A stretch of DNA of 64,000 bases, taken from the NCBI RefSeq assembly GCF_036242395.1, contig NZ_CP108458.1:4340001-4404000 (forward strand). Direction: 5' to 3'. Within the stretch, counting starts at the first letter, position 1. The number at the start of each line of letters is the position of its first letter. The notes below the pieces were generated by a model. The model had not been told where the DNA came from. It saw only the letters and a program-made list of their open reading frames with translations, and did no database searches. The DNA comes from Kitasatospora sp. NBC_01266 (GTDB taxonomy: Bacteria > Actinomycetota > Actinomycetes > Streptomycetales > Streptomycetaceae). Below, piece after piece: positions 17,119-63,699 of this stretch. The position numbers and the translations under genes are program-made.

Positions 17119-17693
17119 ATGAGCACCGACAGCACCGTCACACTGCGCCCGATCGGCCTGGTCACCGGCGGCCGCGCCGAGGTGGTCGACGACGACTGGG
17201 GCCAGGTCGCCGCCGTGATCCGGCTCGACCCGGCCCAGTACACCGCCGAGGCGCTGCGCGGCCTGGACGCGTTCTCGCACCTGGAGGTGGTCTTCCACTT
17301 CCACAAGGTCGCCGAGGAGAAGATCGAGACCACCGCCCGCCGCCCGCGCGGCAACCCCGACTGGCCCGAGGTCGGCATCTTCGCCCCGAACAAGGCCGCT
17401 TTGTGAGCTGCTCCTTCGCTGCGGGCGGGTGCCACCTCGTTCCTCGGCGACCCCCACCCTCCGCTGCGTCTCAGCTCAGTCGCTCGCCGCGCGGCAAGAA
17501 CCGCCCCAACCGCCTGGGCGTCTCCCGCTGCCGCCTGGTCGAGGTCGACGGCCTGGACGTCCACGTGCTGGGCCTGGACGCGGTGGACGGCACCCCGGTC
17601 CTCGACCTCAAGCCCTGGATGGCCGAGTTCGCCCCGCTCGGCGAGAGCGGGCAGCCGGCATGGGCCACCGAGCTGATGCGCGACTACTACTGA
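17119..17693 (+). pseudogene. trmO: trmO (TsaA family) interrupted by a repeat element
   Basis: TrmO is the SAM-dependent methyltransferase that makes N6-methyl-t6A37 in tRNA-Thr. The first part (from 17119) reads LRPIGLVTGGRAEVVDDDWG, LDAFSHLEVVFHFH and RHPRGNP-like RRPRGNPDWPEVGIFA, then runs into foreign sequence and a TGA at 17404. The second part resumes in another frame at 17490 with RGKNRPNRLGVSRC and ends in DLKPWMAEFAP and PAWATELMRDYY. Intact homologues read VGIFAQRGKNRPNRLG without a gap, so about 101 bases have been inserted, shifting the frame and adding a stop. Both halves are otherwise well conserved, which suggests a recent event. A sequencing error cannot explain an insertion of this size. 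Confidence 0.9.
17397..17485 (+). repeat. Palindromic interspersed repeat, copy A (in trmO)
   Basis: An 89-base element. Its left arm (17397-17433) matches 61472-61508 at 35 of 37 bases, and its right arm (17439-17485) matches 61524-61572 nearly as well. The arms are imperfect inverted copies of each other: TGAGCTGC...GCGGGCGGGTG on the left against CACCCTCC...CAGCTCA on the right. It is non-coding and MITE- or REP-like. Confidence 0.85.
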
Positions 17694-58797: not shown

Positions 58798-61422
<2,625 letters not shown>

Positions 61423-61471
61423 TGGTGGTCAGTTTCCTTTCACGCGTGACTGGAGTGCGATCTATCACGGT

Positions 61472-61572
61472 CGCTTGGTGAGCTGCTCCTGCGCTGCGGG
61501 CGGGTGCCGCTGTGCCGTTCGGCGTTTCTCGGCGACAACCCCACCCTCCACTGCGTCGCAGCTCAGTCGCTC
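61472..61572. repeat. Palindromic interspersed repeat, copy B (gyrB-gyrA gap)
   Basis: A 101-base element between gyrB and gyrA. Its outer arms (61472-61508 and 61524-61572) match copy A at 17397-17485, with the differences mostly in a short central spacer. Arms begin with TGAGCTGC on each strand and can pair as an imperfect hairpin in the gyrB-gyrA transcript. Confidence 0.85.
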
Positions 61573-61587
61573 AGAAGTGACTTCTCG

Positions 61588-63699
<2,112 letters not shown>

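Follow-up and report, generated by a model that had tools for sequence, protein, structure and literature searches.

We analysed a window of 64,000 nucleotides of Kitasatospora sp. NBC_01266, in which the gyrase genes gyrB (61588..63621; Pfam PF00204, PF00986, PF01751 and PF02518) and gyrA (58798..61422, start codon GTG; PF00521 and PF03989) both lie on the minus strand. From the end of gyrB (61588) to the start of gyrA (61422), the gap between them is 165 nt. This gap holds the second copy of a repeat (copy B, 61469..61573, minus strand), which begins 14 nt past the gyrB stop codon, terminates 46 nt ahead of the gyrA start codon and is oriented in sense with both genes. The spacer directly before gyrA (61423..61454, minus strand) lies outside the repeat, is conserved in relatives without the repeat and contains the purine-rich stretch GAAAGGAAACTGACC, a putative ribosome-binding site. 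A search for intrinsic terminators (a GC-rich hairpin followed by a T run) gave none on the gyr strand; the sole site was found on the opposite strand.

The first copy of the repeat (copy A, 17394..17486, minus strand) lies inside trmO and is antisense to this gene. In a comparison within the window, copy B was 79% identical to copy A (17391-17485; E = 7e-23). Each copy is an imperfect palindrome of approximately 93 nt, with arms nearly identical between the two and the differences gathered at the hairpin tip. The comparison thus confirmed both the repeat in the gyrB-gyrA gap and the similarity of its arms around a differing spacer, as proposed in an earlier note on this DNA. The folding energy was unremarkable for GC-rich DNA (z = -1.5 for the element, z = -1.0 for the whole gap). 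As this evidence was weak, we used covariation in its place. The signal above chance lies in the existence of the repeat and in its covariation between genomes, not in folding energy alone.

Copy A breaks the predicted trmO gene. The 5' part of trmO (17119..17406, plus strand; PF01980 profile positions 12-67) is ended by a TGA within copy A, and the 3' part (17403..17693, plus strand; profile positions 68-115) continues past it in another frame. In total, 104 nt stand in place of the CAG codon of the intact orthologues (IFA-Q-RGKNRPNR). We tried 29 loci from other genomes at this motif, and trmO was uninterrupted in all 15 that were readable. Since trmO continues past copy A, translational bypassing or splicing was considered and rejected, because the reading frame is disrupted and the orthologues carry no interruption at all. 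A membrane-protein gene was also interrupted by a copy (10/10 motif-readable orthologues uninterrupted, 19 tried). No clean target-site duplication was found at trmO, 1172k, gyrB-gyrA or infB, and the junctions at trmO and 1172k were altered. Annotators may expect broken genes, such as trmO, at the sites where copies have landed.

For the searches we used R1, a covariance model of 93 positions and 24 pairs, trained on 22 Kitasatospora copies. It matched copy B with 88.1 bits (E = 4.5e-19) and copy A with 109.4 bits. By our reading of the aligned copies, the consensus of the repeat is CGAGCGACTGAGCTGMGACGCAGCGGAGGGTGGGGGTCGCCGAGGAACGAGGCGGCACCCGCCCGCAGCGRAGGAGCAGCTCACMAAGCGGCC, with a variable tip. 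There were 6 copies in this 8.57-Mb genome, whose nearest named relative by gyrA is Kitasatospora sp. Root107 (96%), and 43 matches in 12 of the 70 Kitasatospora genomes (E up to 0.1, the best approximately 1e-22), each carrier having 1 to 8 of them. Among 297 Streptomycetaceae genomes, 57 gave a match at E up to 0.001, namely 12 Kitasatospora and 45 genomes of other genera. Weak matches were set aside (G041_5953k, G005_5359k, G053_4865k and window:15889-15982); the last of these, on the plus strand (19.8 bits, E = 0.02), is probably due to chance. Within the window the 4227 models of Rfam detected tRNAs only, and no family matched the repeat. A permissive Rfam search of four loci (L314, L203, L001 and L002) gave one chance-level match, located away from the element. 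We found no match of the repeat to a plasmid or phage carrier. The repeat was not described in the open-access papers searched, a set to which subscription papers mostly do not belong, and the word "coelicolor" was absent from the accessible part of PMC2267715.

Outside Kitasatospora, we read all 47 loci of the 45 genomes, and 37 of them adjoin the stop codon of an acetyl-CoA acetyltransferase (thiolase) gene. These thiolase loci contain 1 to 8 R1 matches each, often as tandem units; in L314 there were seven strong units, the eighth match being weak (27.6 bits). The other 10 loci are at non-thiolase sites, for example at the 3' ends of trpC in G071 and G119, according to our own reading of the sequence. 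The thiolase gene of the genome studied here (PF00108, PF02803; 3' end within G000:C1:5053300-5053560) carries two repeat units. The thiolase 3' end was located in 69 of the 70 Kitasatospora genomes (70 rows read, G019 twice), and the encoded C-terminus was ERLS* in all rows but that of G047 (ERLV*), whether the element was present or absent. The first 15 nt of the element, GAGCGRCTGAGCTGA, are the last codons of thiolase and its stop. Given this match to a native gene tail and the share of loci at thiolase, the thiolase 3' end is the likeliest home of the repeat, and the simplest reading would be that the unit arose there. The converse is possible, namely an element whose end chanced to fit the thiolase tail, because another gene end (...ERRS* in G093) also merges with the element. 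In the tree of copies, where many forks are weak, the thiolase units of G041, G051 and G005 fall within the dispersed group, so traffic may have run both ways.

We observed constraint on pairing between the arms. Among 124 matches (106 distinct rows), 94.5% of the pairing cells were paired, compared with 33.7-42.6% when the partner was slid. Two-sided (compensatory) changes occurred in 21 of the 24 pairs, and covariation was 0.248 as compared with 0.114 in shuffled alignments (0/500), although these figures are not bias-free, as the alignment had been fitted to R1 with 7 opposite-strand matches among its rows. The direction of change was assessed on a tree of 100 rows, from which these 7 rows and identical rows had been removed. 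Watson-Crick pairs changed 40 times to G-U and 11 times to A-C (two-sided P = 5.7e-5); in the dispersed copies alone, there were 12 and 3 such events, respectively (P = 0.035). Change is thus tolerated mainly where the strand in the sense of thiolase still pairs, as would suit RNA or that strand as single-stranded DNA. The gyrBA copy lies in the same sense. The bias towards G-U could come in part from transcription-linked mutation. In the aligned copies, covariation shows the predicted hairpin to be conserved, with a strand bias. The view that a hairpin-forming repeat lies in sense in the gyrB-gyrA transcript region is therefore supported, with arm pairing constrained in the whole family.

Counted with the stop codon, the gyrB-gyrA gap measures 168 nt in this genome. 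Among the 29 nearest other Kitasatospora genomes it spans 50-71 nt in 28, and the remaining one, G045, has a gap of 81 nt. The comparison of the gap in relatives, which the earlier note had suggested, revealed no repeat in those 28 genomes, so that copy B is not an ordinary spacer present everywhere. In G045 both gyr genes are in place and the flanks of the gap are as here; the element's right end, GCAGCTCACCAAGCGACC, is present and the remainder is missing. At the level of the compared gaps, these data show copy B to be a lineage-specific insertion, recognised from empty sites alone, as target-site duplications are hidden by the age of the copies. The flanks and the right-arm remnant of G045 suggest that the insertion is older than the split of G045 and this genome, and that it was then nearly erased in G045. 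Since G045 is not the sister of this genome on the gyrB/gyrA tree, loss in other genomes or exchange of the gap stretch must also have occurred. The near loss of the hairpin in G045 argues against an indispensable role in the gyrase operon. Right-arm remnants like that of G045 were also found in the infB gaps of G034 and G056 (10 of 30 loci read). Deletion remnants at two unrelated sites (L355:201-222; infB gaps L372 and L378) retain nearly the same right arm, from (G)CAGCTCA.

The spread within Kitasatospora was followed on a gyrB/gyrA tree of the 30 nearest genomes. Strong non-thiolase copies were present in 8 genomes (G003, G005, G045, G053, G054, G055, G067 and the genome studied here, G000), all of which sit in one clade of 12 genomes (97/97). 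R1 gave no match in the clade members G034, G056, G049 and G009, and one partial non-thiolase match was found in G023, which is outside the gyr tree. Dispersed units keep the same ends, GAGCG...GCGRCC. Some insertion sites are common by descent: the infB-DUF503 gap in G003, G067 and G055, and another site in G005 and G055. The earlier note had suggested selection on the arms, or their recent spread. Both pairing constraint and spread were observed; "recent" is doubtful, as some sites are common to three species and the family is old. In another genus, an element relative (L333:406-482, in G110) lies near a DUF503-like gene, comparable to the infB-DUF503 gap of Kitasatospora.

Dispersed copies are often found close to the ends of genes. 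Eight of the 18 dispersed loci were in sense at a distance of -20 to +25 nt from a called stop codon, while 2.2 were expected (resampling P = 5e-5), although the count of 8 is inflated by three cases (1172k, TatD-like and Lrp-like) with the stop within the element. The expectation was derived from random non-coding positions within the same 18 loci, with our own gene calls; the 18 loci omit orthologous duplicates (G055_3237k, G067_C39 and G055_5857k) and the short-flank loci L345-L350. The 1172k element sits mid-gene. Unlike gyrB, which was identified by search, the other host genes were named from their translations, and we take them to be infB, a carboxyltransferase gene, and TatD-like, Lrp-like and mIHF-like genes. 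Outside the 18 loci, what is presumably a DAHP synthase gene carries a 48-nt mini-copy.

We consider it probable that copy B is an inserted, non-coding palindromic repeat, which has long had its home in Streptomycetaceae at the thiolase 3' end, has spread in one Kitasatospora clade and is under constraint as an RNA hairpin. At the thiolase gene, 1 to about 7 head-to-tail units follow and overlap the stop codon, and in this clade a small number of further sites, many of them directly past stop codons, have received copies of such units. The constraint would act on RNA, as a 3'-untranslated hairpin at thiolase. According to the accessible part of PMC5055605, gyrBA is transcribed from a single promoter in Streptomyces, which makes a single messenger likely in this genome as well. 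In this messenger, a hairpin of about -50 kcal/mol is predicted to form directly behind gyrB, and the putative ribosome-binding site of gyrA would be left untouched. Such a hairpin would at most hold up 3' exonucleases in the manner of REP, or form a processing edge, favouring gyrB over gyrA. Copy B would then be a passenger in gyrBA, which may stabilise the gyrB part. It is possible that copy B tunes gyrase. The earlier note's proposal that the arms could uncouple or tune the two subunits found no support here: the gyr strand has no intrinsic terminator, and in G045 both genes are in place although nearly all of the hairpin is lost. That it is kept in order to set the gyrB:gyrA ratio, via attenuation, processing or differential stability, seems quite improbable to us: the sense orientation 14 nt past the gyrB stop, the strong predicted hairpin, the family-wide pairing constraint and the single promoter reported in the available text of PMC5055605 would all agree with it, but 28 of 29 near relatives lack the repeat, G045 retains just a remnant of its right arm, the gyr strand has no terminator and similar copies lie at unrelated genes.

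The palindrome, the constant ends, the gene-breaking insertions and the low-copy spread would also be expected of a classical MITE or REP mobilised through its ends by a transposase, with thiolase 3' ends merely a favoured target, and strand-biased hairpins suit single-strand transposition as well. We nevertheless think this unlikely, because the Y1 transposase PF01797, the only transposase family searched, is absent in 5 of the 8 dispersed-copy carriers (G000, G045, G003, G067 and G054), a clean target duplication was not seen, the 5' end consists of native thiolase codons and no plasmid or phage matched. More tentatively, and with low probability, the copies could be SINE-like: a structured RNA cut from the 3' end of the thiolase mRNA, comprising its last codons, the stop and the hairpin, would be reverse-transcribed or otherwise templated into DNA, with a preference for the 3' ends of other genes. 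Such copies would begin with the final codons of thiolase, tolerate G-U more than A-C and end at the hairpin base, with no transposase signature. A chance likeness of GC-rich palindromes, with which the weak folding z-scores would agree, is refuted by the E value of 7e-23 between copies A and B, by model matches to E = 1e-22 and by insertion sites common to several species.

The repeat resembles known small palindromic interspersed repeats and can be regarded as their relative, itself previously undescribed in the literature searched. REP/BIME elements of enterobacteria and pseudomonads, associated with RAYT Y1 transposases, can form mRNA hairpins behind genes in operons. Like them, the repeat is small, palindromic and mostly intergenic, with a conserved hairpin and a strand bias; it differs from them in being longer (approximately 93 nt), in its gene-bound home locus and in having units head-to-tail rather than alternating. 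Its copy number is also different, with 6 R1 matches here compared with the "over 100 per genome" usual for REP in the accessible part of PMC2817692. PF01797 was absent from this genome and present in 29 of the 70 Kitasatospora genomes. A REP/RAYT identity was rejected, given the low copy number and the lack of PF01797 in this genome and in 5/8 dispersed-copy genomes overall, even if the transposase may once have been present. With MITEs the repeat shares its non-coding nature, gene-interrupting insertions, defined ends and an inverted-repeat structure with imperfect termini, GAGCGACTGAGCTG and GGCCGCTTTGTGAGCTG; it differs in that no clean target duplication and no autonomous partner was found (PF01797 search only) and in that its 5' end consists of host-gene codons. 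The MIRU of mycobacteria are likewise actinobacterial, with head-to-tail units of 40-100 nt that overlap with stop codons, but they are not known to be long palindromes. In Streptomyces, stable short transcripts are reported at palindromes, many of them in 3' UTRs, and such structures were likened to REP (PMC4681348). The accessible part of that paper mentions no repeat family, thiolase element or SCO5399.

If our preferred reading of copy B is right, Streptomycetaceae would gain a small interspersed palindromic repeat whose birthplace, the tail of a single metabolic gene, can be traced, and one could follow in sequenced species how such repeats arise, spread and decay. It would also offer a natural test of operon tolerance, with a strong predicted hairpin between the gyrase genes here and the same element almost erased in G045.

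Some copies had an unusual structure or position. A second repeat, GGGGGCACCTCCCGGCCGAAGGCTGGGGG, sat within the tip of several copies from different genomes (L003:1546-1574; L005, L091 and L102). In G067, one copy (L178) is antisense and directly upstream of a pheS-like gene, perhaps within its leader. Three 48-nt mini-copies in G005 (L348:282-329, L349:289-336 and L350:222-269) are without the inner hairpin and look as if deleted between internal GCAGCGGAGG repeats; the gene end that carries the L349 mini-copy bears a full copy in G054.
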